The notes beneath the pieces were generated by a model. That model made no database searches. It had not been told where the DNA came from and saw only the letters and a program-made list of their open reading frames with translations. Of a DNA stretch of 64,000 nt, positions 2,780 to 47,569 are shown in pieces. Position 1 is the stretch's first letter; each line of letters opens with the position of its first letter. The stretch covers positions 22,765,763-22,829,762 of the forward strand of contig JARDYH010000007.1 of NCBI GenBank assembly GCA_029215795.1. Reading direction: 5' to 3'. Both the position numbers and the translations under genes were made by a program. Origin of the DNA: Anniella stebbinsi (lineage: Eukaryota; Chordata; Lepidosauria; Squamata; Anniellidae).

Positions 2780-4684
2780 CTACTTTGGCTCTAACGGCTC
2801 ATCCTTCCACGATCGGATTAGGACCTGGTCTCCGACCCGAAACTTATGAACCGGCGTGTCCAATGGCAAAGGAAGCCGTTCGTGGATATATCTGTGGAGA
2901 GAAGACAAAACACCAGAGAGAGACTGCAAATAACCCTTTATCCATGCCTCCCCCCTTACATGCATTTGACTCCCATGCGTCACCACTGGATTCTTAGGAT
3001 AGGGCTTCCCATACATCAATTCAAATGGGCTCACTCCCAATTTGGCTCTAGGGGCAATGCGAACTCTGAGTAGGGCAAGAGGCAAAGCTTCTGGCCATTT
3101 CAAATGAGTCTCTTGGCAAATTTTCGCTAATTGCCTTTTTAGAGTCTGATTCATTCTTTCAACTTGTCCACTAGATTGTGGCCTCCAAGCCGTGTGGAGG
3201 TCCCATTGTATTCCCAACGCCTTAGCAACCCCCTGAGTCACTGCTGAAACAAAATGGGGTCCTCTATCTGAGGCCAAACCCTCTGGTATCCCAAACCGTG
3301 GGACCACCTCCTTGAGCATTACGCGAACCACTTCTTTGGCCTGGTTCGTTCGACAAGGAAATGCTTCAGTCCAAGCTGTCAAAGTGTCCACCAATACCAA
3401 CAGGTATTTGAAATGTCCTTGTCTGGGGACCTCTGAGAAATCCACTTGCCAAGATTCCCCTGCTAAAAGTCCATGCTTCCCAGTCCCTGGAGGGGGCCTT
3501 GGGGCAATCTTGGGGTTGTTGGCACAACAAACAGAACATCTCTGAACTATCTGTTCGGCCATCTTTCGCATCTTGGGTCCCACCATGACTCTTTGAAGTC
3601 CTTGGGTCATGGCGTCCGGCCCCAAATGAGTACTCTGGTGATATCCCTGGATTACGTGGCTGAGGGTCCATTGTGGCACCAACACTTGTCCTTCCGGCAG
3701 CATCCACCATCCATCCTTCTTCTCTCTTGCTCCTAGTTTCTCTGCCAATTGATTCTCTTTGGCACTGTACTTTGGAGGTTCTCTTGGCAACTTCAACTGA
3801 GGTACAAGAGCCAGCACTGCGGTGTCTATAGTTCCTTCTCGAGCTGCTTTCTTGGCTGCTGCATCGGCTCTTCGATTCCCTCTGATGACTTCACCGTCAC
3901 CTTTCTGATGGGCTCTACAATGCACCACTGCCACTTGCGTTGGTCTATTGACGGCCTCAAGCAAATTCAGAATCTCGGTCCCATGCTTCACGGGACTGTT
4001 GTTGGCAGTCAGCAATCCTCTCTCCTTCCATATCGCTCCATGGGCATGCAATGTTGCAAAGGCGAATTTGGAGTCGGTGAATATTGAAGCTGTCTTCCCT
4101 TCTGCTAGTTGAAGAGCTCTTGTCAGAGCTATTAGCTCTGCCTTTTGCGCTGATGTATTGGCGGGCAAGGCTCTTGCTTCCACGGTGTCCCACAACGTAA
4201 CCACCGCATACCCTGATTTTCTGATTCCATCTTCCATAAAACTACTTCCATCAGTATAATATTCCAATTCCGCATTGGGTAGTGGGGTGTCTTTGAGGTC
4301 CGGCCGACTGGCATACACGCTCTCTATAGTTTGGATACAATCATGCTGCGTTCCCTCTTCTTGTTCCAAGGGCAACAATGTAGCTGGGTTCAAGCTATTG
4401 GAGACCTGCAGGTTAACATCCCCTTGATCCAGAAGGATGACCTGGTATCTGGCCATGCGACTGGGTGAGAGCCAATTTCCTCCTTTGGCATCCATCACAG
4501 CCATCACTGCATGGGGAGTATACACAACCATTGTCTGTCCCAAGGTGAGCTTCTGAGCTTCTCTCACCAACATTGCCGTTGCGGCCACGGCCTTCAAGCA
4601 TGCTGGCCATCCTCGACTGGGTGCATCCAATTGCTTGGAGAAGTAAGCCACCGGTCTCTTCCAGCTTCCCAGCAACTGAGTCAA
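2780..4684 (-). pseudogene. pol: pol: RT connection, RNase H and integrase
   Basis: 634 codons are open; the frame extends a little further upstream, and the first codon shown is TTG. The RT connection region is at residues 1-110. RNase H covers about 138-280, with D145 (YTDGSS), E183, D204 (FTDSK) and D274. The integrase zinc region has H349/H353 and C383/C386. The integrase core has the DDE triad D415 (QVDF), D473 (SDRG) and E509 (QVER). All these catalytic residues are present. The polymerase catalytic palm is not part of this ORF and is absent from the provirus. A frameshift at about 4690-4705 separates it from the RT remnant, and a TAG ends it within the integrase tail. Confidence 0.9.
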
Positions 4685-11219: not shown

Positions 11220-11227
11220 GTCAATAG
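11220..11227. repeat. hAT target-site duplication (left)
   Basis: GTCAATAG, exactly repeated at 22924-22931 on the other side of the element. Confidence 0.95.
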
Positions 11228-11247
11228 TAGGGATGTGCACTGACCCC

Positions 11248-11385
11248 CCGGATCGGATCGGATAGCGGATCGGAATCGGACCTGGGGGGTCGGATCGGAT
11301 CGGATCGGATTGGATCGTGTGTCGGATCGGATCGGATCCGATTCCGATCCGCGGATCGGATTTTCCGATCCGGATCGGACGCCAT
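11248..11385. repeat. GGATC-rich subterminal array (left)
   Basis: Many overlapping CGGATCGGAT units in both orientations, just inside the terminus. Dense short repeats at hAT ends usually serve as transposase binding sites; that role is inferred here. Confidence 0.85.
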
Positions 11386-12030
11386 TTTGAATGCTTTTTC
11401 CTATAGCAAATTATTGTTTTATGAAAACGCCTATAACTTTTTCATTTTTAAAGACAGAAGGATGAAACTTGGGCACATTGTACACTGGTTAGGGATAGGT
11501 ATCTGTGAGAAATTTCAGAAAGATTGGTGCATGCAGTTTGTGGCAATTAATTTTTTAATAAATAACATGGAATGCCTATAACTCGGTCATTTTTAAAGTT
11601 ACACACATGAAACTTTGCCACATTGTAGGTGGTACCTTGGGACCCACGTGTGTGAAATCCCAGAACCGTGGGTGCTTGCCTGGTGTGGCAATGAATTTTT
11701 GAAAAATGGGTAGTAGTGGGGTAAATGCAGTTATGCCTCCCATGTTTTTATTTTTAAAGATACAAACAGGACACTTCGGCACATTACAGGGAACACTTCC
11801 CTTGATATGTGTGTAAAATTTCAGACAGCTAGCTCCAGGCATGTGTTGGCAATGAATTGTTGAAAATTGGGTAGCAGTGGGGTAAAATACAGTTTTGCCT
11901 CCCATTTTTTTATTTTCAAAGATACAAACGGGAAACTTTGGCACATTGCAGGGAACACTGCACTTCAAATGTGTGTGAAATTTCCGGAAGCTAGGTGCAA
12001 CATTTTAGTGGGAAACGAACGTTTATTCAT

Positions 12031-12618
12031 GGCATTTCACATGGGATTTATGGGTTGGTTTTAAGAGCTACAAAGCTCTAACTCGCTCACATGGCACAGG
12101 ACCTATGCCCGCTCAAACGCTGAAAATTTCACAAACTTTGGTGCAATGCTTTAGTGGGAAAACAAAGGTTTATTCATGGCATTTCACATGGGATTTATGG
12201 GTTGGTTTTAAGAGCTACAAAGCTCTAACTCGCTCACATGGCACAGGACCTATGCCCGCTCAAACGCTGAAAATTTCACAAACTTTGGTGCAATGCTTTA
12301 GTGGGAAAACAAAGGTTTATTCATGGCATTTCACATGGGATTTATGGGTTGGTTTTAAGAGCTACAAAGCTCTAACTCGCTCACATGGCACAGGACCTAT
12401 GCCCGCTCAAACGCTGAAAATTTCACAAACTTTGGTGCAATGCTTTAGTGGGAAAACAAAGGTTTATTCATGGCATTTCACATGGGATTTATGGGTTGGT
12501 TTTAAGAGCTACAAAGCTCTAACTCGCTCACATGGCACAGGACCTATGCCCGCTCAAACGCTGAAAATTTCACAAACTTTGGTGCAATGCTTTAGTGGGA
12601 AAACAAAGGTTAAACATT
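12031..12618. repeat. 147-bp tandem repeat, 4 copies
   Basis: Unit starts GGCATTTCACATGGGATT at 12031, 12178, 12325 and 12472. The copies look nearly identical. The period is a multiple of three, which creates a spurious 188-codon open frame. The opposite arm has three copies. Confidence 0.95.
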
Positions 12619-12620
12619 AT

Positions 12621-13032
12621 TATTTTAAACCTTCAGGAAGGGGACATTGCCTGCCTGGTGTGGATTGGTAATGAGGGAAGAAAGTTTTACTTATTCATTT
12701 GTAAAATGTAAAGTGATTGTAAATTGCTTTAGGGACCCATACATTTACATGACAAGACAGGTGTTGGTTGCAGGAATGCTACCAAATGCACTAGTAGCTA
12801 ATCCCAGGTAATAGCTATTCAGATCCTAGCTAATAGCTATTATTCAGATCCTAGCCTGGGAAGGGATCTTGCAGGATAAGTGATTGTTCTTTTCTTGTGT
12901 AGTATGTAATTCTAAACCAGAAGGCTGCTTTGATGTAGAGCCAATCCACATGGTCTCTTGCAGCACCTAGTATTATTTATTTCTCCTTCCACAGCAGAAT
13001 CTGGAAGGCGGGCAGGCAGGCTGGCATTTAAT
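12621..13032. other. spacer inside the large hAT
   Basis: Mostly unique sequence with a short duplication of AATAGCTATT...CAGATCCTAGC around 12810-12855. Confidence 0.6.
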
Positions 13033-13838
13033 GGGCAAAGTCCAACAGCGGCGTTGGGGACTGGGTGACATTCTCCTTGAGGGCGAATGCCAAGTCCCAT
13101 GGCTTGTGCGAGGAGGGCGGCTTGCTCTCTTTGCAGGAAGGATCTGGAAGGCGGAAGGCGGCATCAGCAGCGGGCGGGCAGGCTGGCATTTAATGGGCAA
13201 AGTCCAACAGCGGCGTTGGGGACTGGGTGACATTCTCCTTGAGGGCGAATGCCAAGTCCCATGGCTTGTGCAAGGAGGGCGGCTTGCTCTCTTTGCAGGA
13301 AGGATCTGGAAGGCGGCAGGCGGCATCAGCAGCGGGCGGGCAGGCTGGCATCCAGGGCAAAGTCCAACAGCGGCGTTGGGGACTGGGTGACATTCTCCTT
13401 GAGGGCGAATGCCAAGTCCCATGGCTTGTGCAAGGAGGGCGGCTTGCTCTCTTTGCAGGAAGGATCTGGAAGGCGGCAGGCGGCATCAGCAGCGGGCGGG
13501 CAGGCTGGCATTTAATGGGCAAAGTCCAACAGCGGCGTTGGGGACTGGGTGACATTCTCCTTGAGGGCGAATGCCAAGTCCCATGGCTTGTGCGAGGAGG
13601 GCGGCTTGCTCTCTTTGCAGGAAGGATCTGGAAGGCGGCAGGCGGCATCAGCAGCGGGCGGGCAGGCTGGCATCCAGGGCAAAGTCCAACAGCGGCGTTG
13701 GGGACTGGGTGACATTCTCCTTGAGGGCGAATGCCAAGTCCCATGGCTTGTGCGAGGAGGGCGGCTTGCTCTCTTTGCAGGAAGGATCTGGAAGGCGGCA
13801 GGCGGCATCAGCAGCGGGCGGGCAGGCTGGCATGTAAT
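13033..13838. repeat. GC-rich tandem repeat, 5 copies, 160/162 bp
   Basis: Unit starts GGGCAAAGTCCAACAGCGG at about 13033, 13195, 13355, 13517 and 13677. Steps alternate 162 and 160 bp because of CATTTAATGGG versus CATCCAGGG junctions, which suggests amplification as a dimer. Confidence 0.93.
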
Positions 13839-15225
13839 GGGCAAAGTCTCTCCTTTCCCGGGCACTGTGGCAGTGAGAGTTCCATAGGCTGCAAAAGAAG
13901 AAGGGGGGGAAAAAAGAATGAATATTAGTTGACCACTTCAACACAACTAGCTCCCTTCCACCCAGGATTGCCCTTCCTGAGTGCCCACGCCCCAGCAGGC
14001 ACACGGGGCTGCCTGCTCACTCGGAAGTTAGCAGGCAGACAGCCACCCTTTAGTTAGGTGGAAGGTGCCCCCCCATTCACAGAACACTTACCGTAGTCCT
14101 CCTGAGGGTGTTGTTGATAAGATGCCACTTCCAGGCGGGCAGTGACGGGCAGGTGGGCAGTCTGCATTACCGTCTCTCCTGGGCACTGTGGCAAAGAGTT
14201 CCATAGGCTGCAAAAGAAGAAGGGGGGGAAGAATATGAGAAAAATGATACTTTTCCACCACTGGCTCCCTCCCACCCAAGACTGGCATGTGCCCGGTCCT
14301 GAGTGCCCACGCCCCAGCAGGCACACGGGGCTGCCTGCTTGCTTACTCGTGGGTAAGCTGTCTGACAGGCTCTTACCAGAGTCGTGCGGGCGACGTGAAT
14401 CGATGGGCCACCTCCATGCGGCCGTGGCTGGGGCAGATGGGCAGTCTGGATTCACGGGTGCGCTTTGCGCAGTGGCGAAGAGTTCCATAGGCTGCAAAAG
14501 AAGGAGGGGGGGGGAAAAGAATGAATATTAGTTGACCACTTTAACACAACCAGCTCCCTTCCACCCAGGATTGCCCTTCCTGAGTGCCCACGCCAAAGCA
14601 GGCACACGGGGCTGCCTGCTCACTCGGAAGTTAGCAGGCAGACAGCCAAACTTCAGTTAGGTGGAAGGTGCCCCCCCCCATTCACAGAACACTTACCATA
14701 GTCCTGAGGGCGTTGAGGACTCGGTGAGATTCTCCTGGAGGACCCCTAGTCCCATGGCTTGTGCAAGGAAGGCGGCTGGCCCGCCTCGCAGGAACGATCT
14801 GGAAGGCGGCAGGTGGCATCAGCAGCGGGCGGGCAGGCTGGCATGTAATGGGCAAAGTCTCTCCTTTCCCGGGCACTGTGGCAGTGAGAGTTCCATAGGC
14901 TGCAAAAGAAGAGGAGGGGGATAATGAATATTACATGAATACTTTTATACTGCAAAAGAAGAAAGGAAAATAAATAAAGATTTGTATTAAATAATTAATA
15001 CATGCAAGTCGTAGTAGTCTCCCACCGGCACACTTCTCTTGTTTGTGATGCAATCCTCTTTCTCCTGCTGCACCCCTCCCTTTCTAAATCACTCTTCTGA
15101 GCCCATTGTTAGAGGGATTGGCTATCCTTTTGTGTCTGGCAGGACACAGCTTACCGGATCATTAGAGAATCACCATTTCTTTTGTCCTTGGGTTATTCAT
15201 TCACTCCTAATAGCACCCTACGTTA
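13839..15225. repeat. segmental duplications inside the large hAT
   Basis: AGTTCCATAGGCTGCAAAAG recurs at about 13878, 14197, 14481, 14889 and 15511. It is followed by a G-run and then a block with CACACGGGGCTGCCTGCT. The units are 280-620 bp apart, diverged and not strictly tandem. Part of the 160-bp unit recurs at 14745-14850. Confidence 0.85.
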
Positions 15226-15384
15226 GGCTGACCAGATCAAATCCAGGTCAGGGTTCCTAACTTCAGCAGTTGTAGAGAAAAGGGAATTTCTGCCAGTGTC
15301 ATTTGTATGGAATTAGTTCCTGCTGAGATTCCCTCTTCATCACAACAGTTAAAGGTGCAGGGGCCCTGCCTTCTTTTCTATATG
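15226..15384. repeat. family B MITE half inside the large hAT
   Basis: It begins AGGCTGACCAGATCAAATCC and ends TCTATATGGCCACTCT. It matches the half-unit seen twice, in inverted order, at 26971-27293. Confidence 0.65.
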
Positions 15385-15777
15385 GCCACTCTGCCTGCAC
15401 TCTTACCTGAGTCGTAGGGGTGACGTGAATCGAGGGGCCACTTCCATGTGGCCGTGGCTGGGGCAGATGGGCAGTCTGGAATCACGGGTGCGCTTTGCGC
15501 AGTGGCGAAGAGTTCCATAGGCTGCAAAAGAAGGAGGGGGGGGGGAAAGAATTAACATGAGATAAATCATACTTTTCCACCATTGGCTCCCTCTCACCCA
15601 GGACTGGCATCTGCCCGGTCCTGAGTGCCCACGCCCCAGTAGGCACACGGGGCTGCCTGCTTGCTTACTCGGAAGTAAGATCTCAGACTGCCCCACTTCT
15701 GGACACTCTCAGGTGTCCCTGCGTTGACTGCACACACTTACCTTATTCGTGCGGCCGCTGTGGATCGGAGGACTCCA
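15385..15777. repeat. further copy of the segmental unit
   Basis: Continues the 13839-15225 pattern: GTGAATCGAGGGGCCAC, AGTTCCATAGGCTGC and CACACGGGGCTGCCTGCT blocks. Confidence 0.75.
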
Positions 15778-16772
15778 GTGGCACATAGGCTCCTCCAGGC
15801 AAAGTCACATTGGCATAGGCTCCTCCAGGCAAAGTCACATTGGCATAGGCTCCTCCAGGCAAAGTCACATTGGCATAGGCTCCTCCAGGCAAAGTCACAG
15901 TGGCACATAGGCTCCTCCAGGCAAAGTCACATTGGCATAGGCTCCTCCAGGCAAAGTCACAGTGGCACATAGGCTCCTCCAGGCAAAGTCACATTGGCAT
16001 AGGCTCCTCCAGGCAAAGTCACATTGGCATAGGCTCCTCCAGGCAAAGTCACATTGGCATAGGCTCCTCCAGGCAAAGTCACAGTGGCACATAGGCTCCT
16101 CCAGGCAAAGTCACATTGGCATAGGCTCCTCCAGGCAAAGTCACAGTGGCACATAGGCTCCTCCAGGCAAAGTCACAGTGGCATAGGCTCCTCCAGGCAA
16201 AGTCACGTTGGCATAGGCTCCTCCAGGCAAAGTCACAGTGGCACATAGGCTCCTCCAGGCAAAGTCACATTGGCATAGGCTCCTCCAGGCAAAGTCACAG
16301 TGGCACATAGGCTCCTCCAGGCAAAGTCACATTGGCACAGGCTCCTCCAGGCAAAGTCACAGTTTGGCACAGCTCCCTCCAGGCAAAGTCCCAGTGGCAC
16401 AGGCTCCTCCAGGCAAAGTCACAGTTTGGCACAGCTCCCTCCAGGCAAAGTCCCAGTGGCACAGGCTCCTCCAGGCAAAGTCACATTGGCACAGGCTCCT
16501 CCAGGCAAAGTCACAGTTTGGCACAGCTCCCTCCAGGCAAAGTCCCAGTGGCACAGGCTCCTCCAGGCAAAGTCACAGTTTGGCACAGCTCCCTCCAGGC
16601 AAAGTCCCAGTGGCACAGGCTCCTCCAGGCAAAGTCACAGTTTGGCACAGCTCCCTCCAGGCAAAGTCCCAGTGGCACAGGCTCCTCCAGGCAAAGTCAC
16701 ATTGGCACAGGCTCCTCCAGGCAAAGTCACAGTTTGGCACAGCTCCCTCCAGGCAAAGTCCCAGTGGCAGAG
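15778..16772. repeat. 30-32-bp minisatellite
   Basis: About 32 units built on AGGCTCCTCCAGGCAAAGTC. The first half uses CACATTGGCAT and CACAGTGGCACAT joints. From about 16360 a two-unit pattern with GTTTGGCACAGCTCCC and GTCCCAGTGGCAC appears. Open frames of 200-270 codons in all three plus frames are by-products of the repeat. Confidence 0.95.
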
Positions 16773-16930
16773 GCAAAGTCCCAGTGGCAGAGGCAAAGTC
16801 CCACTGGCAGAGGCAAAGTCACAGCTGCATGGGCCCCTCCAGGCAAAGTCCCAGTGGCAGAGGCAAAGTCCCAGTGGCAGAGGCAAAGTCCCACTGGCAG
16901 AGGCAAAGTCACAGCTGCATGGGCACCTCC
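16773..16930. repeat. shortened minisatellite variants
   Basis: AGAGGCAAAGTCCCAGTGGC units of about 20 bp in two blocks, each ended by CAGCTGCATGGGC. This is a transition to the next satellite. Confidence 0.8.
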
Positions 16931-17925
16931 AGGCAGGCAGGCGGGCAGAGGCAGAGGCAGAGGCGGGCATGATGCCAGGCGCTTGCGCATTGCACAAGTA
17001 AGCAATAGAACCGTGAGACCAGCCCACGCATTCCGGCTACTTCACAATGGCGGCAACCTAGCAGGCGGGCAGGCAGGCAGGCAGGCAGGGGCAGAGGCAG
17101 AAGCGGGCATGATGCCAGGCGCTTGCGCATTGCACAAGTAAGCAATAGAACCGTGAGACCAGCCCACGCATTCCGGCTACTTCACAATGGCGGCAACCTA
17201 GCAGGCGGGCAGGCAGGCAGGCAGGCAGGGGCAGAGGCAGAGGCGGGCATGATGCCAGGCGCTTGCGCATTGCACAAGTAAGCAATAGAACCGTGAGACC
17301 AGCCCACGCATTCCGGCTACTTCACAATGGCGGCAACCTAGCAGGCGGGCAGGCAGGCAGGCAGGCAGAGGCAGAGGCAGAGGCGGGCATGATGCCAGGC
17401 GCTTGCGCATTGCACAAGTAAGCAATAGAACCGTGAGACCAGCCCACGCATTCCGGCTACTTCACAATGGCGGCAACCTAGCAGGCGGGCAGGCAGGCAG
17501 GCAGGCAGAGGCAGAGGCAGAGGCGGGCATGATGCCAGGCGCTTGCGCATTGCACAAGTAAGCAATAGAACCGTGAGACCAGCCCACGCATTCCGGCTAC
17601 TTCACAATGGCGGCAACCTAGCAGGCGGGCAGGCAGGCAGGCAGGCAGGGGCAGAGGCAGAGGCGGGCATGATGCCAGGCGCTTGCGCATTGCACAAGTA
17701 AGCAATAGAACCGTGAGACCAGCCCACGCATTCCGGCTACTTCACAATGGCGGCAACCTAGCAGGCGGGCAGGCAGGCAGGCAGGCAGAGGCAGAGGCAG
17801 AGGCGGGCATGATGCCAGGCGCTTGTGCATTGCACAAGTAAGCAATAGAACCGTGAGACCAGCCCACGCATTCCGGCTACTTCACAATGGCGGCAACCTA
17901 GCAGGTGGGCAGGCGGGCAGGCAGT
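16931..17925. repeat. 140-bp satellite, 7 copies
   Basis: TTCACAATGGCGGCAACCTA occurs at 17041, 17181, 17321, 17461, 17601, 17741 and 17881. Each unit has a GGCA/GGCAGA purine-rich part and a conserved part (GCATTGCACAAGTAAGCAAT, CATTCCGGCTACTTCACAAT). The copies look nearly identical apart from the length and composition of the GGCA tract. Confidence 0.97.
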
Positions 17926-18504
17926 TTTTTAAATCATATAGCCAAAATAAACACAACACACAGTGACAGCCCTGCAAGGCTGCCACATAAGTCCATAAGA
18001 CACAGTCAGAAACAGTGTGGGATGCTGCTTGTCATCCACTCAATGTAGGAGCCTGGAAGAGGAATCCTATCGCGTCCTTCGTTCATAGTCAGAGAGGTGC
18101 ATGCGTTCCTTGGCGATAAAATTAAGCCTTCTTCTTATCCAAAGTTCTCATGAACCTCTGACGTGGTCTTACAAGAAGAAACGCCCATGGAAGTGTGGGA
18201 CCTTACAGAAGGCCTGGAGGGAGCCATCGGAGTTCAATTTCAGAGGCACACGTGCAAGCACATTGGTTCAAGTCAAACAACATAGAATGTGTGAGATGCT
18301 TGTGCATCCCCTCAATGTAAGAGGCTAGGAGAAGAAACTAGATCCCTTCGGGATCCATCGTTCAGAGTTGAGTTACTGAGCTGTAAACAACACAGCCAGT
18401 AAATTAAAGTAAAGAAAATTAATTAACCGAAAATAAGAATTAAAAAATCAAGGGCCTGCTGGTGCCTGCCCAAAGGTGTGGGATGGATGGGGGGTGCCTG
18501 CCAA
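17926..18504. other. region downstream of the transposase
   Basis: The probable 3' untranslated region. Two diverged copies of a block (CTCAATGTAGGAGCCTGG near 18040, CTCAATGTAAGAGGCTAGG near 18312) lie in direct order. No clear polyadenylation signal was found. Confidence 0.5.
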
Positions 18505-20463
18505 TTACTCCCCCGCGGGCATGAGGGTGGGGTATCCCAGCAGGGGCAGATTGACCTTGAGGAAGACCAGCTGCTCCACAATCTCAGCGTCCAAGCGAGA
18601 GCGGTGGGGTGTGACCACGTCGCCCGCCATGGAAAACACCCGCTCGCTTGGAACGCTGGACGGTGGGCAGCTGATTCTGTCCATGGCCACCCGCGCCAGA
18701 TCAGGCCACATCTGGCGCCGAGATGACCAGTAGGCCAGGGGTTCGATGGAGCCGTCCTCCATCTGCTCCGCCAGGTAACGCTGCACTGCTGCTGCAGCGT
18801 CATCCTGGCGACGGCTGGGTTGAGTGCCTCTATGCCCAACCGCAGCCTGCAAAGCCTTGTCCCAAAACCCCTGGCCTGTCCCCCTGCTGGGTGTGGTGGT
18901 GCTGGTGCCGCCGCTGCTGGTGGTGCTCAGCGGACTTAGCGCCTGGGCTTCGCTGGGCTCCTCCTCTGCCTGCCCAATCCTGGCATCCCGGGCCGCCCGA
19001 ACGTCCGTCACCAGCATTTCCACCCAACCTGCCCGGGAAGTCTGCCCACATAACCCATCCTTGATGCGCGGGTCGCACATGGTGGCCAACATGTACTGCC
19101 TCTCGTTGTAGAGAGGCTGGACCCGGCGGGATAGGCTTTCCCTCAGCCTCGTCACCACTTCCCGCACCTCTGGCAGGAAGCGCCTGCCGGTGACGGCATC
19201 CCCGGCCTCCAGAAACTCGCCCATCTGATTCTGGAGATGCCTGGCCATGGGGAGCACCTGGCTGAGAAGGGCAGTGCTGCTGCTCAGGGTCTCGGTGGCC
19301 TCAAGGAACGGCTTGAGGACCACCAGAAGCTGGGACATGGCCTCCCACTGCTGCCTGGACAGTGGGGCCTGGATGCCAATGTCCCCGACCCTGAACATCT
19401 CGTGGACAACACGCTGTTGCTCCACCATACGCTCGAGCATGTGGTAGGTGGAGTTCCAACGTGTTGCCACGTCCTGCACTAGCCGGTGCTGCGGAAGTCC
19501 CAGCTCCTGCTGCTTCTCCCGCAGCAACCGACTGCCCTTCACGCTGTGGTGGAAATGCCCAGCCACCTTCCTGCAGCTCTCTAGGAGATTACGGATTTGG
19601 GGAGGGAGAGGGGCCTTGCTGCCTCCAAGGCCATCCCTGACGACCAGGTTGAAGACGTGCGCGATGCAGCGGATGCCCTCAAATCCGCCATCGCGCACCG
19701 CCTTCAGCATATTGGCTCCCCCGTCCGTGACCATGTAACCGCGGGTGTGCTGGTGCCCGCCCAGCCACCCTGCCACCATGCGGTTCATGGCCTCCGTAAT
19801 CTCCTCCGCCGTGTGGGACTGGTCCATGACTGCGGTATGAAGGAGGGCCCAGCGGCAGCCCTCCTTCCCAGTCCCAGAAGTCCTGGGTGCTTCCTGCCCT
19901 GAGGCTCCCCACCAGTGAGCCGTCAGGGACAGGTAAGCGTGCACTCCTCCTTCGCTGGACCAGATGTCCGAAGTGAAGTGCACCTTCTGAGCCTCTGCCT
20001 GGCACAGACGACCCAGAACTAACTCCCTGCATGCCTGGTACAGGGAGGGCACCACACGCCTGCTCAGGGTGGTGCGACACGGCGGCTTGTAGTATGGAAC
20101 CACAAGAGCCATCAGCCTCTTGAAGCCTGCGTTCTCGACGAGGCTGAATGGCTGGTCATCCAACGCCACCATCTCACCGATGCAATTGGTGATCTGGTTG
20201 GGCGCTGGAAAACGCCACCTTGTGGCTCCATACTTCCCCCACCCCATCTCTTCCATGGTGGCCTGGCGAAGCCTCTTGGGGATGGGAGGTCGAGAGCTGG
20301 CAGAAGTTGCAGGAGCCTTCTGCTTGCCCTTGCCGCTAGCACCAGTCTGCTGCGAGGTGCCCGCCTCGGTCCCAAGCAAAACAGACTGGTGGTGCCTCTG
20401 CATGTGGCGGGTGAGGTTCGTGGTGGTGAAGTGGCCTGGCATTTTTCCCCTGCTCACTGACAT
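18505..20463 (-). CDS. hAT transposase, main ORF
   Basis: 652 codons from an ATG at 20463, uninterrupted. The start falls inside a BED zinc finger; its second half is visible (TTNLTRHMQRHH, residues 14-25), and the first cysteine pair (CRHC) lies just upstream in the same frame at about 20467-20478. RNase H-like catalytic residues fit the hAT D-D-E pattern: D166 (FTSDIWSS), D247 (MVTDGGANM), and E608 in the C-terminal block (SVPSERVFSMAGDVV), with the CxxH motif C266/H269 (RCIAHVFNLVV) and RWNSTYHML between. The C-terminal hAT dimerisation region (residues 596-640) is complete. The enzyme would cut and paste the element by binding its ends. The ATG is probably not the natural start; see the upstream ORF. 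An assignment to the Ac/ZBED group is likely. Confidence 0.92.
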   Translation of the reverse strand: MSVSRGKMPGHFTTTNLTRHMQRHHQSVLLGTEAGTSQQTGASGKGKQKAPATSASSRPPIPKRLRQATMEEMGWGKYGATRWRFPAPNQITNCIGEMVALDDQPFSLVENAGFKRLMALVVPYYKPPCRTTLSRRVVPSLYQACRELVLGRLCQAEAQKVHFTSDIWSSEGGVHAYLSLTAHWWGASGQEAPRTSGTGKEGCRWALLHTAVMDQSHTAEEITEAMNRMVAGWLGGHQHTRGYMVTDGGANMLKAVRDGGFEGIRCIAHVFNLVVRDGLGGSKAPLPPQIRNLLESCRKVAGHFHHSVKGSRLLREKQQELGLPQHRLVQDVATRWNSTYHMLERMVEQQRVVHEMFRVGDIGIQAPLSRQQWEAMSQLLVVLKPFLEATETLSSSTALLSQVLPMARHLQNQMGEFLEAGDAVTGRRFLPEVREVVTRLRESLSRRVQPLYNERQYMLATMCDPRIKDGLCGQTSRAGWVEMLVTDVRAARDARIGQAEEEPSEAQALSPLSTTSSGGTSTTTPSRGTGQGFWDKALQAAVGHRGTQPSRRQDDAAAAVQRYLAEQMEDGSIEPLAYWSSRRQMWPDLARVAMDRISCPPSSVPSERVFSMAGDVVTPHRSRLDAEIVEQLVFLKVNLPLLGYPTLMPAGE

Positions 20464-21032
20464 CTTGCAGTGGCGACAGACAGCAAAGCGGAATCCACTG
20501 CCACCTCAAAGTGGTCCCACACCTTGCTTGCCTGTCGCTTCTGGGGTGACACAGACGGCCTGCCGGCGCCTTCGCTCTGTGGTGTCACCTCAGGAGCAAG
20601 GGAATGAGTGGAAGAGAGGACGGATTGTGGAGAGTAAGTCTCTGGTGCTGCCTGCTCTTCCTCTTGCCCCACATCAGAGTCCTCCTTCTCACTCTGAACC
20701 TCGCTGACTTCCACAAGATCTGGGAAAAGATCAGTCAGCGGGTTCACAGGCTCACCCACCAAAGAAGGAGCTGGATATAGTGCTCCTTCTTCATGCCCAC
20801 TGCTGCTCCCAGCACCTGCCTCATGTTGCTGAAAGAGTGCCCTGCAGGCACTACTTTGAGTTGCCTCTGCCTGCTTCTGCTGCCCCAGTGGAGAACGCCT
20901 CAGTTTAACTGGGGGTGTGGAAGTAGGCTGCCTGCTGCTGGTCCCAGCAGCAGCAGCAGCAGCGCCATGCCCAGAGCGGCCTCTCCCAAATGCTGCCTTG
21001 GGAGCACCCCCCCTTTGAGTGCCACGCTTCAT
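20454..21032 (-). CDS. hAT transposase, N-terminal part in another frame
   Basis: 192 codons from an ATG at 21032. Residues 1-60 are basic and alanine/serine-rich, 85-130 are acidic, and 160-177 lead into the start of a BED finger (SKVWDHFEV). The frame then leaves the finger, while the CRHC half appears one frame over, and it closes after 192 codons. The two parts overlap at 20454-20463. Joined, they would span roughly 840 residues, a normal ZBED-type transposase length. A single missing nucleotide at about 20490-20500 explains the split; a sequencing error, a mutation or programmed frameshifting are alternatives. Confidence 0.75.
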   Translation of the reverse strand: MKRGTQRGGAPKAAFGRGRSGHGAAAAAAGTSSRQPTSTPPVKLRRSPLGQQKQAEATQSSACRALFQQHEAGAGSSSGHEEGALYPAPSLVGEPVNPLTDLFPDLVEVSEVQSEKEDSDVGQEEEQAAPETYSPQSVLSSTHSLAPEVTPQSEGAGRPSVSPQKRQASKVWDHFEVAVDSALLSVATARCQ

Positions 21033-21654
21033 TTTATTTTTATTATTATTTATTTTTGTGTAAGTGTGTGCTTTGCTGACTTTTTTTGTGTTTGTAGCAG
21101 CAGGCTACACAGCCCAGCAACACACACTCACTCACAAGCGCACACACACACACACACACACACAGAGAAAGAGAGAGAGAGAGAGAGAGGATAGAAATAT
21201 TTTTTTATTATTTTTTTGGGTTTTTTTCAGAAAGCGAAAGTAGAACAAACACACTCACTGCAAAGACAAACTGAACTCACAGACAAACAAACGTGCTATC
21301 TAAGAAAGGAAAGGCAAGAGAGAAAGGAAAGCCAAGAGAGAGAACAAGAAAAGCTGAAGTAAAAGATCAGAAACTCCTCAAAACCACCTCCAAATGCAAT
21401 CAAATCAATTCAATCAATACAGTCTCTCCAACACAGCTCCAAAACACTCCCTAATCTCCTCCACGTTCAACCCACAAAGAGCCAGAAGGGCAGGGCTGAG
21501 AGAATATATACTGGTGCCCTCCTCCAGCATTGCGATTGGAGGCTGAAGAAAGTCTTCACAGGATTGGGTGATTCAGTCATGTATTCTAAAGCACAATTGG
21601 TGGATCAAGCTGTCAAACACACACACACAAACACAGCCTCCCCCTCCCTTTCCT
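21033..21654. other. region upstream of the transposase
   Basis: Contains a CA/GA microsatellite (21131-21190) and purine-rich sequence with repeated AAAGGAAAG. It is the likely promoter and 5' untranslated region of the transposase, but no TATA box or start signal is evident. Confidence 0.5.
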
Positions 21655-22923
21655 GAAGGTTTAAAATAATAAAGTTTAACCTTTGTTTTCCCACTAAAGC
21701 ATTGCACCAAAGTTTGTGAAATTTTCAGCGTTTGAGCGGGCATAGGTCCTGTGCCATGTGAGCGAGTTAGAGCTTTGTAGCTCTTAAAACCAACCCATAA
21801 ATCCCATGTGAAATGCCATGAATAAACCTTTGTTTTCCCACTAAAGCATTGCACCAAAGTTTGTGAAATTTTCAGCGTTTGAGCGGGCATAGGTCCTGTG
21901 CCATGTGAGCGAGTTAGAGCTTTGTAGCTCTTAAAACCAACCCATAAATCCCATGTGAAATGCCATGAATAAACCTTTGTTTTCCCACTAAAGCATTGCA
22001 CCAAAGTTTGTGAAATTTCCAGCGTTTGAGCGGGCATAGGTCCTGTGCCATGTGAGCGAGTTAGAGCTTTGTAGCTCTTAAAACCAACCCATAAATCCCA
22101 TGTGAAATGCCATGAATAAACGTTCGTTTCCCACTAAAATGTTGCACCTAGCTTCCGGAAATTTCACACACATTTGAAGTGCAGTGTTCCCTGCAATGTG
22201 CCAAAGTTTCCCGTTTGTATCTTTGAAAATAAAAAAATGGGAGGCAAAACTGTATTTTACCCCACTGCTACCCAATTTTCAACAATTCATTGCCAACACA
22301 TGCCTGGAGCTAGCTGTCTGAAATTTTACACACATATCAAGGGAAGTGTTCCCTGTAATGTGCCGAAGTGTCCTGTTTATATCTTTAAAAATAAAAACAT
22401 GGGAGGCATAACTGCATTTACCCCACTACTACCCATTTTTCAAAAATTCATTGCCACACCAGGCAAGCACCCACGGTTCTGGGATTTCACACACGTGGGT
22501 CCCAAGGTACCACCTACAATGTGGCAAAGTTTCATGTGTGTAACTTTAAAAATGACCGAGTTATAGGCATTCCATGTTATTTATTAAAAAATTAATTGCC
22601 ACAAACTGCATGCACCAATCTTTCTGAAATTTCTCACAGATACCTATCCCTAACCAGTGTACAATGTGCCCAAGTTTCATCCTTCTGTCGTTAAAAATGA
22701 AAAAGTTATAGGCGTTTTTGTAAAACAACAATACTTTGCTATGGGAAAAACGCATTTAAAATGGCGTCCGATCCGCCGATCTGATCCGATCCGGATCGGA
22801 CCTCGCCGGATCGGATCGGATCGGATCGGATGGTGTGTCGGATCGGATCGGATCGGATTTTCCGATTTTTGGGGCGGATCGGATTCGGATCGTGGATCGG
22901 ATCCGATCCGATGCACACCCCTA
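21655..22923. repeat. right terminal arm of the large hAT
   Basis: Inverted copy of 11228-12620 with three, not four, 147-bp units (landmark CTAAAGCATTGCACC at 21694, 21841 and 21988). Confidence 0.9.
22765..22918. repeat. GGATC-rich subterminal array (right)
   Basis: Dense GGATC units in both orientations adjoining the right terminus; the counterpart of 11248-11385. Confidence 0.85.
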
Positions 22924-22931
22924 GTCAATAG
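22924..22931. repeat. hAT target-site duplication (right)
   Basis: GTCAATAG, identical to 11220-11227. Confidence 0.95.
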
Positions 22932-26821: not shown

Positions 26822-26970
26822 AAAATGGCTGTGGCTGTGAGGATTTAGCGTTATTCAGTCATTTTCATTGTGTGTAACCTCTTAATGTTTCTGAGGGGAA
26901 GTGGGGATAAGTTTGCTACCCCCCCCACACACACACACATACACCTTCATCCCTGTTCTCATCACTTTCT
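26822..26970. other. noncoding
   Basis: Nothing recognisable apart from a short C/CA tract at about 26920-26942. Confidence 0.6.
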
Positions 26971-27293
26971 TAGGCTGACCAGATAAAATCCAGGTCAGGG
27001 CTCATGTAACTTTAACAGTTGTAGAGAAAAGGGAATTTCAGCCGGTGTCATTTGTATGCAATTAGTTCCTGGTGATATTCCCTCTTCATCACAACAGTTA
27101 AGGGTGCAGGCACTATACTAGAGTGACCATATACAAAAGAAGGCAGGGCCCCTGCAACTTTAACTGTTGTGATGAAGAGGGAATTTCACCAGGAATTAAT
27201 TGCATACAAATGACACTGGCTGAAATTCCCTTTTCTCTACAACTGTTAAAGTTACATGAGCCCTGACCTGGATTTTATCTGGTCACCCTACAC
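26971..27293. mobile_element. family B foldback MITE, dimer-like
   Basis: The left end GGCTGACCAGATAAAATCC and right end GGATTTTATCTGGTCACCC are inverted. Each half carries AACTTTAACAGTTGTAGAG and GGGAATTTCAGCC. Half-units meet at about 27112 (AGAGTGACCATATACAAAAG). A long hairpin is predicted. Confidence 0.75.
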
Positions 27294-30222: not shown

Positions 30223-32034
30223 TAGGGATGTGCACTGGATCGGACCCGATCCACGATCCGAGTCCGGTCCAGTGGGAAATCGGATAAATTATCCGATTTC
30301 CGATCCCGCAGCTGGATCGGCCGATCCAATCCGAACCGGTCCGAAAAAGCTCCGAACCGGTTCGGCGGATCGGCGGATCGGCGGGCGCCCACTGGCGCCC
30401 ACCGCCGCTTCCATTGGCGGGCGCCAGCGGGCGCCCGCCGATGAAAGTGGACAGCGGGGGGGGAGGAGGGGGGCACTTACCTTCTCGGCCCGGTGGCTCC
30501 CGTCCGGCGCCGGCGCCTACTACTACTAGCAGGCTCCGCGGCCTGCTCTAGGGTGGCGCGCCGGGTGATGTCATCACCCGGCGCGCTACTCTAGAGCAGG
30601 CCGCGGAGCCTGCTGGTAGTAGTAGGCGCCGGCGCCGGACGGGAGCCACCGGGCCGGGAAGGTAAGGAGGGGGTGCGTGGAGGGGAGGAGGGGGCGCGCG
30701 GAGGGGGGAGGGGGGAGGGGGGCCCTTACCTTTCCGGCCCGGCGGCTCCCGTCCGGCGCCGGTGCCTACTATTCCCAGCAGGCTCCGCGGCCTGCTCTAG
30801 GGTGGCGCGCCGGGTGATGTCATCACCCGGCGCGCTACTCTAGAGCAGGCCGCGGAGCCTGCTGGTAGTAGTAGGCGCCGGCGCCGGACGGGAGCCGCCG
30901 GGCCGGAAAGGTAAGGAGGGGGTGCGTGGAGGGGAGGAGGGGGCGCGCGGAGGGGGGAGGGGGGCCCTTACCTTTCCGGCCCGGCGGCTCCCGTCCGGCG
31001 CCGGCGCCTACTATTCCCAGCAGGCTCCGCGGCCTGCTCTAGGATGGCGCGCCGGGTGATGTCATCACCCGGCGCGCTACTCTAGAGCAGGCCGCGGAGC
31101 CTGCTGGAAGTAGTAGGCGCCGGCGCCGGACGGGAGCCGCCGGGCCGGAAAGGTAAGGAGGGGGTGCGTGGAGGGGAGGAGGGGGCGCGCGGAGGGGGGA
31201 GGGGGGCCCTTACCTTTCCGGCCCGGCGGCTCCCGTCCGGCGCCGGCGCCTACTATTCCCAGCAGGCTCCGCGGCCTGCTCTAGGATGGCGCGCCGGGTG
31301 ATGTCATCACCCGGCGCACTACTCTAGAGCAGGCCGCGGAGCCTGCTGGAAGTAGTAGGCGCCGGCGCCGGACGGGAGCCGCCGGGCCGGAAAGGTAAGG
31401 AGGGGGTGCGTGGAGGGGAGGAGGGGGCGCGCGGAGGGGGGAGGGGGGAGGGGGGCCCTTACCTGCCCGGCCCGGCGGCTCCCGTCCGGCGCCGGCGCCT
31501 ACTACTACCAGCAGGCTCCGCGGCCTGCTCCAGGGTGGCGCGCCGGGTGATGTCATCACCCGGCGCGCTACTCGAGAGTAGGCCGCGGAGCCCGCTGGTA
31601 GTAGCCGCCGGCGCCGGACGTGCCGAGAAGGTAAGTGGCGGGGAAGGGGGCTTACCCCCCCCCGGAGCCGTCCGCTTCTATCCGCTGGCGCCCGCGGGCG
31701 CCAGCGGATGGAAGCAGGCGGCCCCAGGGGGGGTAGGGAGCGCGGGGGAGGGGGTTTACCTGCCGGGGCCGTCCACAGCGGACGGCCCCGGGGGGGGGAG
31801 GGAGTTAGGCCCCCCCTTACCCACCCGCCGCCATTTTTTCCTCATAGACTTGCATTGCAATGCAAGTCTATGGGGAAAAAAATGGCGGCCGATCCAAAAA
31901 TTTCCGATTTTTGGATCGGGATCGGACTCGATCCGGTCCGGGGGGCCTCCGATTTTGTCCGAACCGGTCCGGGACAAAATTGGAGGTCCCGATCCGGGTC
32001 CCGATCCGATCCGGGGGGTCCGTGCACACCCCTA
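30223..32034. mobile_element. non-autonomous hAT relative, 1.8 kb, GC-rich
   Basis: Starts TAGGGATGTGCACTGGATC and ends with the mirror of TAGGGGTGTGCAC. A perfect 8-bp duplication CATTTTAC lies at 30215-30222 and 32035-32042. The ends carry GGATC/GATCC arrays like the large hAT. The interior (30420-31640) is five copies of a GC-rich palindromic unit. There is no transposase frame. Confidence 0.92.
30480..31640. repeat. five tandem GC-rich palindromes
   Basis: Units of about 242-249 bp. Each is centred on GGGTGATGTCATCACCC, with cores at 30566, 30815, 31057, 31299 and 31548. On each side run TCTAGAGCAGGCCGCGGAGC and GGCGCCGGCGCCGGACGGGA in mirrored order. Strong cruciform potential and very CpG-rich. 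Confidence 0.92.
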
Positions 32035-39796: not shown

Positions 39797-42700
39797 TAGG
39801 GGTGTGCATCGGATCGGATCCGATCCACGATCCGAATCCGATCCGACCCAAAATCGGGAAAATCCGATCCGATCCGATCCGATCCGACCAACCTCCGATC
39901 CGATCCGATGAGGTCCGATCCGGATCGGACGCCATTTTGAATGCTTTTTCCCATAGCCAAGTATTGTTTTACAAAAACGCCTATAACTTTTTCATTTTTA
40001 AAGATAGAAGGATGAAACTTGGGGACATTGTAGACTGGTTAGGGATAGTTATCTGTGAGAAATTTCAGAAAGATTGGTGCATGCGTTTTGTGGCAATTAA
40101 TTTTTTAATAAATACCCAGGAATGCTTATAACTTTGTCATTTTTAAAGTTACAAACATGAAACTTTGCCACATTGTAGGAGGTACCTTGGGACCTATGTG
40201 TGTGAAATTTCAGAAACATAGGTGCTTGCCTTGTGTGGCAATTAATTTTAGAAAAATGGGTAGTAGTGGGGTAAATACAGTTACGCCTCCCATTTTTTTA
40301 TTTTTTAAGATACAAACAGGAAACTTGGGCACATTACAGATACCACTTGCCTTGATATGTGAGTGAAATTTCAGAAACATTGGAGCTTGCCTTGTGTGGC
40401 AATTAAGTTTTGAAACAATGAGGAAAGAAACACCTATAACTTTGTCATTTTTAAAGTTACACACATGAAACTTTGCCACATTGTAGGTGGTACCTTGGGA
40501 CCTATGTGTGTAAAATTTCAGAAACATAGGTGCTTGCCTTGTGTGGCAATTAATTTTAGAAAAATGGGTAGTAGTGGGGTAAATACAGTTACGCCTCCCA
40601 TTTTTTTAGTTTTGAAGATACAAACAGGAAACTTGGGCACATTACAGGGAACACTTCACTTGATATGTGTGTAAAATTTCAGAAACATTGGTGCTTGCCT
40701 GGTGTGGCAATTAATTTTTGAAACAATGAGGGATTCATTGGACAGCACTTGCCCATAAGGATTCATTGGACAGTACTTTCCCATAGGGAATCATTGCATT
40801 GCACTTTCCCATAGGGAATCATTGCATTGCACTTTCCCACTGAGAAATACAGTTATGCCTCCCACATTTTTATTTTTGAAGATACAAACAGGAAACTTGG
40901 GCACATTGTAGACTGGTTAGGGATAGTTATCTGTGAGAAATTTCAGAAAGATTGGTGCATGCGTTTTGTGGCAATTAATTTTTTAATAAATACCCAGGAA
41001 TGCCTATAACTTTGTCATTTTTAAAGTTACACACATGAAACTTTGCCACATTGTAGGAGGTACCTTGGGACCTATGTGTGCTAAATTTCAAAAACGTAGG
41101 TGCTTGCCTTGTATGGCAATTAATTTTAGAAAAATGGGTAGTAGTGGGGTAAATACAGTTACGCCTCCCATTTTTTTATTTTTTAAGATACAAACAGGAA
41201 ACATGGGCACATTACAGGGAACACTTCACTTGATAGGTGTGTAAAATTTCCGAAAGCTGGGTCCAGGCATGTGGTGGCTATGGAATTTTTAGATTAAATG
41301 TTTCAAAAAATGTTCCACAGAGGCCAGGTCTTCCTTTCCTCCCCCTCCCGCTTCCCGCGAAGAAAAGGAAACACTGTCTCGTCTCGATCCCTTTGATCCT
41401 TGCTAGTATCCATTACAGGGCTCGTGTCTGCTTTCCTACTTTCACTTTTTTACTCAAGCAGACACGAGCCCTGTAATGGATACTAGCAAGGATCAAAGGG
41501 ATCGAGACGAGACAGTGTTTCCTTTTCTTCGCGGGAAGCGGGAGGGGAAGACCTGGCCTCTGTAGAAATTTTTTTGAAACATGTAATTTAAAAATTCCAT
41601 AGCCATCAAATGCCTGGACCTATCATTCTGAAATTTCTGACACATATCTACCCCTAACCCATCTACAAAGTGAGCAATGTTCAGACTTCTAACTTTTAAA
41701 ATAAAAAAGTTATAGGCGTTTCTTTCCTCATTGTTTCAAAAATTAATTGCCACCACATGCCTGGACCCAGCTGTCTGAAATTTTACACACCTATCAAGTG
41801 AAGTGTTCCCTGTAATGTGCCCATGTTTCCTGTTTGTATCTTAAAAAATAAAAAAATGGGAGGCGTAACTGTATTTACCCCACTACTACCCATTTTTCTA
41901 AAATTAATTGCCATACAAGGCAAGCACCTACGTTTTTGAAATTTCACACACATAGGTCCCAAGGTACCACCTACAATGTGGCAAAGTTTCATGTGTGTAA
42001 CTTTACAAATGACAAAGTTATAGGCATTCCTGGGTATTTATTAAAAAATTAATTGCCACACAAGGCAAGCACCTACGTTTCCGAAATTTCATACACATAG
42101 GTCCCAAGGTACCACCTACAATGTGGCAAAGTTTCATGTATGTAACTTTAAAAATGACAAAGTTATAGGTGTTTCTTTCCTCATTGTTTCAAAAATTAAT
42201 TGCCACACAAGGAAAGCTCCAATGCTTCTGAAATTTCACTCACATATCAAGGCAAGTGGTACCTGTAATGTGCCCAAGTTTCCTGTTTGTATCTTAAAAA
42301 ATAAAAAAAATGGGAGGCGTAACTGTATTTACCCCACTACTACCTATTTTTCTAAAATTAATTGCCACACAAGGCAAGCACCTATGTTTCTGAAATTTCA
42401 CACACATAGGTCCCAAGGTACCTCCTACAATGTGGCAAAGTTTCATGTTTGTAACTTTAAAAATGACAAAGTTATAAGCATTCCTGGGTATTTATTAAAA
42501 AATTAATTGCCACAAAACGCATGCACCAATCTTTCTGAAATTTCTCACAGATAACTATCCCTAACCAGTCTACAATGTCCCCAAGTTTCATCCTTCTATC
42601 TTTAAAAATGAAAAAGTTATAGGCGTTTTTGTAAAACAATACTTGGCTATGGGAAAAAGCATTCAAAATGGCGTCCGATCCGGATCGGACATCTGGTCCG

Positions 42701-42804
42701 ATCCGATCCGACCAGCCTCCGATCCGATCCGATCCGATCCGACCCCCCAGGTCCGATTCCGATCCGCTATCCGATCCGATCCGGGGGGTCAGTGCACATC
42801 CCTA
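39797..42804. mobile_element. non-autonomous hAT relative, 3.0-kb foldback
   Basis: Ends TAGGGGTGTGCATCGG and, read inward from the right, TAGGGATGTGCACTGACC. A perfect 8-bp duplication GAAATGTA lies at 39789-39796 and 42805-42812. GGATC arrays at both ends are followed by arms of over 1 kb that are inverted copies of each other, built from the same roughly 150-bp module as the large hAT. No transposase. The whole element can fold into one hairpin. Confidence 0.93.
41325..41565. repeat. central hairpin of the 3.0-kb element
   Basis: Arms of about 105 bp (landmark GGCTCGTGTCTGC at the inner left and GCAGACACGAGCCC at the inner right) surround a loop of about 26 nt at 41433-41458. The arms look almost perfect, apart from a few bases in the C-rich outer part. 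Confidence 0.88.
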
Positions 42805-46310: not shown

Positions 46311-47569
46311 TAGGGGTGTGCATCGGATCAGGTCCGATCCACAATCCGGAGCTGATCCAACCGAAATCAGATAAAATTATCCGATTCCGATCCTGGCTTC
46401 TGGATCATCCGATCTGATCCGAACTGGTCTGAAAGGACCCGATCTGTTTCGGTTAAGATCAGAGGATTGGACCTCCTCCTCCCCTTCATGCTTCTTACCT
46501 GCTGGGGCCGTCCACTGCCACCTGTGGGCGGCAGCAGATGGCAGTGGACGGCCCCGGCAGGTAATCCCCCTCCTCCCCTTCATGCTCCTTACCTGCTGGG
46601 TCCATTCGCTGCTGTCCGCTGCCCCCTTCTACTGAGAAACAGGCTCCGTGGCCTGCCTCTCAGTAGCGCAATGGGTGATGAAGTCACCAGGCGCGCTACT
46701 GAGAGGCAAGCCACGAAGACTGTTTCTCAGTGGAAGGGGGCAGCGGACGGCAGCAGATGGCCCCAGCAGGTAAGGAGCGCAAAGGAGAGGAGGGGGAGGG
46801 CCCCATTTACCTGCAGGGGCACCCGCTTCCATCTGCTGCTGCGATCTACTGAGAAACAGGCTTCGCGGCCTAGTTCTCAGTAGAGCGCTGTGTGATGACA
46901 TCATCACCTGGCGCTCTACTGGGAACTAGGCCATGAAGCCTGTTTCTCAATAGATCACAGCAGCAGACGGAAGCGGGTGCCCCAGCAAGTAAGGAGCATG
47001 AGGGGGGAGGAGGACGAGGGCCCTACTTACCTGCCGGGGCGCCTGCTTTCCTCTGGTGCTTTGATCTACTGAGAAACAGGCTTTGTGGCCTGCCTCTCAG
47101 TAGCGCCCCAGGTGATGACATCATCATCTGGCGTGCTACTGAGAGGCAGCCCACAAAGCCTGTTTCTCAGTAGATTGGAGTAGCGGATGGCAATGAACTG
47201 CCCCGGCAGGTAAGAAGTGCAAGGGGGAGGGGGCTTACCTGCTGGGGCCATCTGCTGCCATCCACTGCCACCTGTAGGTGGCAGCGGACGGCAGCAGACA
47301 GCCCTGGCAAGTGAGGAGCACAAGTGGGGTTGGAGGGGCAGGGAGGGGGGAGTTAGGCCCCCACTCACCCACCCACTGCCATGTTGCTAGCCTATGGTGA
47401 AAACACCAAAAATGGTGGCCGATCCAAAAATTGGACGTCCGATTTTCGGATTGGGATCAGATCTGTTCCTATCTGAGGGACCTCCAATTTTGTCCAAACC
47501 AATCCAGGACAACATCGGAGGTCCCAATCCAGGTCCCGATCCAATCCAGGGGGTCCGTACACATCCCTA
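46311..47569. mobile_element. non-autonomous hAT relative, 1.26 kb, older
   Basis: Starts TAGGGGTGTGCATCGGATC and ends with the mirror of TAGGGATGTGTAC. The flanks GTAGCAAG (46303-46310) and GCGGGAAG (47570-47577) match at 5 of 8 bases, as expected of a decayed duplication. GATCC units are mutated. Inside are three palindromes around TGATGACATCATCA-like cores (46675, 46893, 47113) with TACTGAGAAACAGGC arms. Confidence 0.85.

Follow-up and report, generated by a model that had tools for sequence, protein, structure and literature searches.

An Ac-like hAT transposon with foldback-type inner arms in Anniella stebbinsi

The described transposons that come closest to the element reported here are Ac and Hermes in their enzyme and Galileo and Tetris in their anatomy. 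The element, which we call element A, occupies positions 11,228–22,923 of a 64,000-nucleotide stretch of the Anniella stebbinsi genome (GenBank assembly GCA_029215795.1, contig JARDYH010000007.1, forward-strand positions 22,765,763 to 22,829,762); this whole stretch is termed the window, and all coordinates refer to it. Ac/Ds of maize resembles element A in its ends (C/TAGGGATG...CATCCCTA), its 8-bp duplications, its heterogeneous non-autonomous partners and its single autonomous element, whose transposase has 807 aa in Ac; the Ac transposase binds CGG-containing subterminal hexamers (AAACGG), present in multiple copies within 200 bp of each end (PMC3260210). Ac differs in being 4.6 kb long with 11-bp inverted repeats, and the excerpted account makes no mention of kilobase arms, satellites or core inversion (PMC3260210). 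Hermes of the house fly shares with element A the transposase fold, the dimerisation domain, the nTnnnnAn target and unlike ends whose BED-site repeats are mostly opposite in orientation on the two sides, whereas its length (~3 kb), its 17-bp inverted repeats and its repeat motif are different (PMC10368747). A preference for CGG words has been measured for other BED/hAT proteins (CGGBP, hAT-19; PMC8097297), and a recent report on a hAT element of turtles, fishes and a frog lists 8-bp duplications together with 15-bp inverted repeats as marks of the superfamily (PMC11008031).

The anatomical parallels come from Drosophila. Galileo has long terminal repeats of up to ~1.25 kb, some with variable internal tandem repeats, and exchange between its copies has been proposed; unlike element A, it belongs to the P superfamily and makes 7-bp duplications, and its longest repeats reportedly never occur in nearly complete copies (PMC3573991). 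Tetris of Drosophila virilis has foldback arms that contain ~220-bp tandem repeats, a source of satellite DNA, but an autonomous copy was not found, and its authors suggest Mutator (PMC4079207). Foldback elements are thus mostly described, in these cases at least, without a working enzyme. Our literature search found no autonomous hAT element with kilobase arms; most subscription papers, Repbase and Dfam were outside its reach.

We conclude, with a probability of roughly 85%, that element A is an Ac-like hAT transposon of the cut-and-paste kind that has multiplied recently and has the gene content of an autonomous element. On this reading, conversion and crossing-over in the course of repair make use of its inner arms, and one left (L) and one right (R) end are retained. 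Its features are as follows; the arrays were called with Tandem Repeats Finder (TRF).

11,220–11,227: left target-site duplication GTCAATAG, 8 bp
11,228–22,923: element A, 11,696 bp
11,228–11,413, plus strand: L-type left end, starting TAGGGATGTGCAC, with a CGGAT array that points mostly inward
11,414–12,611, plus strand: left arm, including a 147-bp array at 12,004–12,611 (4.1 units)
13,008–13,848: 162-bp tandem array, 5.2 units here and 2.2–5.2 over ten complete copies
13,876–15,700: degenerate longer internal repeats; a 282–326-bp unit was called as a tandem array in three of the ten complete copies
15,776–16,774: 62/92-bp tandem array
16,745–16,935: 90-bp tandem array
16,930–17,924: 140-bp tandem array, 7.1 units here
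18,505–21,032, minus strand: transposase gene, encoding 842 aa in a single open frame where intact, with BED finger, ribonuclease H (RNase-H)-like core and hAT dimerisation domain
21,678–22,727, minus strand: right arm, including a 147-bp array at 21,678–22,138 (3.1 units); outer border approximate
22,728–22,923, minus strand: R-type right end, starting TAGGGGTGTGCATCGG, with a CGGAT array of opposite orientation; inner border approximate
22,924–22,931: right target-site duplication GTCAATAG, 8 bp

The arms of element A are closely similar: the longest pair without gaps spans 1,055 nt at 99% identity, and a gapped alignment of 11,322–12,464 with 21,678–22,830 covers 1,156 columns at 97.5%. Across the ten complete copies, the best arm alignments run to 1,037–1,368 columns at 96.0–97.5%. 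At the tips, about a dozen bases match between the sides (TAGGG[A/G]TGTGCA), and the next ~170 bp are largely unlike. This partition was examined by aligning the outermost ~780 bp of each side in 21 copies: the left and right majority bases were unlike in 77 of 219 columns at positions 1–186 and in none of 584 columns at positions 187–770. The long arms are subterminal, lying inside a short terminal repeat and unlike ends. An initial annotation of this stretch, made from the letters alone, had kilobase arms in place of the usual terminal repeats of tens of bases; the arms are there, and so are the short repeats that they were supposed to replace.

The unlike ends are dense in one short word. 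Counting both strands, CGGAT occurs 17 times in the outer 170 bp of the left side and 19 times in those of the right; shuffling the letters gave 0.33 and 0.36. These outer 170 bp of each side hold 36 of the 41 matches in element A; the other 11.4 kb contain only five. Read inward, the ratio of CGGAT to ATCCG is 14:3 at the left end and 5:14 at the right.

Element A combines two sets of traits. From the hAT side come the 8-bp duplication, found in the window's copy and in 20 of 20 copies fetched from the genome, and short terminal inverted repeats of about a dozen bases, the sides being unlike over ~186 bp. From the foldback side come long inverted repeats that contain tandem arrays, the arms here being subterminal. 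It is an Ac-like hAT element with foldback-type arms. The initial annotation was correct on the 8-bp duplication, the Ac-like ends and the assignment to hAT with internal satellites, the last of which is upheld by the transposase domains, the fold and the TRF arrays.

The enzyme was characterized from copy L020, with a domain scan limited to the transposase frames. Pfam reported Dimer_Tnp_hAT (1.8e-15) and zf-BED (3.8e-10). Hermes was the nearest solved relative both by sequence (5.8e-13) and by fold (9.0e-16; template-modelling score 0.69 on the target). In the fold search, all 12 matches at E ≤ 0.001 were Hermes, which points to an RNase-H-like transposase fold in the AlphaFold model; the mean predicted local distance difference test score of that model was 68.1, with 283 of 842 residues below 50. 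We take D356, D437 and E797 to be candidates for the DDE triad, as proposed from sequence motifs. Two other affiliations were considered and dropped: Galileo and the P superfamily (P-type transposase, 7-bp duplication) are ruled out by the hAT domains and 8-bp duplications, and a Mutator foldback by the transposase being of hAT type.

The transposase had been annotated as near-intact. The gene is indeed present, but in the window's copy a 1-bp deletion in the BED finger splits it into frames at 18,505–20,505 and 20,454–21,104. Nine other copies were covered over the whole gene: eight have one open frame, and L010 has a premature stop. In a further 11 copies, covered in part, the frame is open throughout the stretch read. 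When the genome was searched with the 842-aa L020 protein, the best 54 of 2,319 candidates were scored, and all 54 were full-length and stop-free at ~100% identity; as the best-scoring matches, they set a lower bound and do not give the share of intact copies. Open copies beyond those 54 (L009, L011, L023, L024, L026 and L061) bring the number of places with an open frame to at least 60. Variants in the gene comprise 13 nonsynonymous changes at 1,919 sites and 10 synonymous changes at 607, too few for a selection test.

To what extent has this element multiplied? The 1.89-Gb assembly (91 contigs) was searched with the left 173 bp, and 40 of 1,209 first-look candidates were scored; all 40, the window's copy included, matched over the full length at 99–100%. 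Twenty copies were fetched out of the 39 other left-end matches, together with their right ends. Every one is full length (11,039–13,783 bp), has the same tips and carries its own perfect 8-bp duplication; L010 (11,535 bp) has one changed base in the right tip. Chance is thus excluded, and the second full-length copy with another duplication that the initial annotation had proposed to look for exists 20 times over. A search with the right 184 bp, in which 40 of 1,157 candidates were scored, returned matches of 91–100% over the full length; the window's copy was among these 40 right ends, and none came from the 20 fetched copies.

The flanks of the copies bear on how they arose. The flank could be read in 53 copies and gave 51 distinct target 8-mers, with a preference for the nTnnnnAn motif: T is at position 2 in 46, A is at position 7 in 42, and both are present in 36. 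Near-identical, repeat-rich copies are hard to assemble, and one might thus suspect segmental duplication or an assembly artefact with no transposition at all. The distinct flanks, the hAT target motif and the 20 of 20 perfect duplications speak against such a source; for the element as such, this explanation is refuted, and overall it is scarcely credible, although array lengths and flipped cores may still be affected by assembly error.

In the gene region, the mean pairwise difference between copies is 0.0014 and the maximum is 0.0041 (over 190 pairs that have more than 1,000 bases in common). At a substitution rate of 1–2e-9 per site and year, the burst would be less than a million years old. 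Might the family have arrived by horizontal transfer shortly before it? Copies 0.14% apart in a genome whose closest protein relatives are at most 53% identical could be read in this manner. Those relatives are ZBED4-like hAT proteins of the same lineage, compared with element A by protein only and belonging to different families; over residues 272–690, identity is 51–52% for Crocodylus, up to 53% for Hemicordylus and 44–47% for Anolis, with caecilians lower. In both protein searches, scoring was confined to the ~8,000 candidates that shared most words, and many reptile genomes may be missing from the collection searched. In addition, two diverged non-autonomous elements with the same end types (relatives B and D, below) lie in the same window, which indicates a longer local history of related elements. 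We judge a recent horizontal arrival to be quite unlikely.

Evidence for exchange between the arms was sought in their variants. At positions 187–770, 19 arm variants were found: 12 in the left arm only, four in the right only and three in both. Each of the three two-arm variants falls within one copy (once in L009, twice in the window's copy), and no variant is common only to the arms of different copies; a permutation gave p = 0.005, with small numbers and a shuffle that ignores copy relatedness. More same-copy sharing is seen inside the 147-bp array of the same two copies, where the alignment is less sure, and the left side of L023 has R-like bases at 182–186.

Inverted cores provide a second line of evidence. 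The core of L022 is inverted from ~1.3 to 10.3 kb, whereas its L and R ends are both normal and its duplication is perfect. L078 is likewise flipped: its L tip adjoins the transposase, its R tip lies ~15.2 kb off, and TTTTGCAG is present on both sides, its middle being known only from the transposase match. L107, typed from one side alone, was judged flipped by an L tip that adjoins the transposase. These are three of 60 copies typed on the transposase side (sets of 21 and 18, with 14 more by tip and 7 by subterminal sequence; 12 of 33 short stretches went untyped). Together, same-copy variants in both arms and inverted cores show recombination and mutual conversion of the arms. For this reason, the earlier argument that near-identical arms betoken youth does not stand on its own, although its conclusion holds on the low divergence among copies.

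The same data allow us to weigh a simpler account of arm identity, namely youth alone: one recent inverted duplication in the founder and no later exchange. Copies diverged by only ~0.14%, and 16 of 19 variants confined to one arm, are what it would predict. It sits poorly with the three variants that are shared within copies and never only between them, the further sharing within the 147-bp array, the R-like bases of L023 and the flipped cores. It also fares badly with relative C, introduced next, whose arms are 5–15% away from those of element A yet nearly identical to each other, and whose ends are shared with element A. We therefore consider youth alone very unlikely.

Three shorter relatives lie in the window:

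30,223–32,034, minus strand: relative B, non-autonomous, flanked by the duplication CATTTTAC, L and R end types as in element A
39,797–42,804, minus strand: relative C, non-autonomous foldback, 3.0 kb, duplication GAAATGTA on both sides
46,311–47,569, minus strand: relative D, non-autonomous, same end types, flanking 8-mers GTAGCAAG/GCGGGAAG

Relative B consists mostly of tandem ~242-bp GC-rich units, each a palindrome, and the first 70 bp of the L end of relative C are identical to those of element A. When the first 50 bp of elements A–D were compared, likeness was 0.71–1.00 between L ends, 0.74–0.98 between R ends and 0.42–0.59 between L and R; the values for the left end of D are understated, as that end was placed 2 bp too far out. 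The arms of C match each other at 97–100% (200–700) but match the arms of A at 85–95% (180–600). Ends are thus alike by side and arms by element: the ends follow the side, the arms the element. Elements A and C show a clear orientation bias of CGGA. The shorter elements, which share these L and R ends, are probably moved by the transposase of element A or by one closely related to it.

These relatives also bear on the idea that the long arms were selected for transposition, whether as extra transposase sites, as in Galileo, or as the source of a hairpin transcript that tunes silencing. That the non-autonomous relative C keeps its arms would suit such a role, and the long repeats of Galileo are reported to carry several transposase-domain sites (PMC3688188). 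Against it, the putative binding motif CGGAT is concentrated outside the arms of the window's copy, in the outer 170 bp described above, and the interiors of B and D are palindromic with other sequence in place of the arms. Selection of this kind appears unlikely.

To return to arms that serve as a repair substrate, the following course of events would account for the observations. By analogy with Hermes, and with Ac for the CGG words, the BED finger of the transposase would bind the CGG-containing arrays, CGGAT being the presumptive site, and would distinguish left from right. Breaks left by excision would be repaired from the sister or from the opposite arm, the latter yielding arm-to-arm conversion; repair would sometimes end in a crossover, flipping the core, and could also lengthen or shorten the tandem arrays. 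Two things would shield the ends from conversion: they are too unlike, and the element needs one of each type.

A more ambitious version, which we offer tentatively and rate a little short of even, is that element A belongs to an autonomous and probably still active hAT family in which two jobs have been split: short asymmetric ends, shielded from exchange, would give the transpososome its polarity, and the long inner arms would be a built-in recombination substrate, copying from one another and letting the core flip without loss of mobility. If true, the transposon would be invertible, would homogenise itself and would give rise to foldback elements and satellites.

Several points weigh against these interpretations. 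Two of the ten copies read over the whole gene are broken (the window's copy and L010). Both copy sets were picked, 20 copies by a 99–100% left end and 54 by best score, and the proportion of family members that are intact can be read from neither. Activity is deduced from copy identity and open frames. The arm variants found outside the array are, with the exception of three, confined to one arm, which means that conversion is slow relative to the burst; these three stem from just two copies. Heterology alone, without selection, may keep the ends apart. Among the relatives, the flanking 8-mers of D differ at three places, D probably being older, and the CGGA:TCCG bias is weak at the right of B (4:7, compared with 10:1 at its left) and absent at the left of D (2:2, compared with 2:6 at its right).

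Here the long-armed form comes with its own open transposase, in young copies that number in the dozens, which permits arm origin, conversion, inversion and satellite growth to be traced at ~0.1% divergence. Whether both a left and a right end are required is open to direct test in this family. Active hAT elements are used as gene-transfer tools. They have been described as rare in vertebrates (PMC4890040).

The internal arrays vary in length among ten complete copies whose gene differs by just 0.14%. The 147-bp array has two to four units in either arm. The 140-bp array has 3.1–11.1 units in the six complete copies for which TRF returned a period of 136 or 140 bp; in the other four, the period of that region was 148 bp. 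A genome search with the 140-bp repeat gave 156 first-look candidates, of which 40 were scored; eight of the listed arrays lie ~5–7 kb from a right end, as expected within the element. By coordinate sum, the arms and arrays make up ~46% of element A, which falls short of the "over half" that had been annotated as repeats; that figure is reached (~62%) when the degenerate repeats at 13,876–15,700 are added. Plus-strand frames of 220–276 aa in the satellites were dropped as gene candidates, as they read like tandem translations.

Some smaller observations concern the repeats and the surroundings of element A. The segment at 15,224–15,409 (element positions 3,997–4,182) resembles 27,095–27,290, 26,970–27,110 and 233–375 at 75–91%, and may be a dispersed repeat of older date that became trapped within the core. 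Degenerate ~160-bp repeats make up the arms of A and C (11,686–11,984 and 22,144–22,553; 40,059–40,731 and 41,688–42,628), and several arrays in the window have periods of 140–174 bp, near nucleosome length. Relative C has nested inverted repeats and a central palindrome at ~41,310–41,560. At 55,653–56,436, a 174-bp tandem array leads to a TAGGGGTGTGCGGAG tip on the minus strand (at 56,436), beyond which lies ATGCTGAT; these may belong to a further hAT-like element whose subterminal motif is different. Finally, a CAGGGTTGTGCAC tip ends at 37,567.

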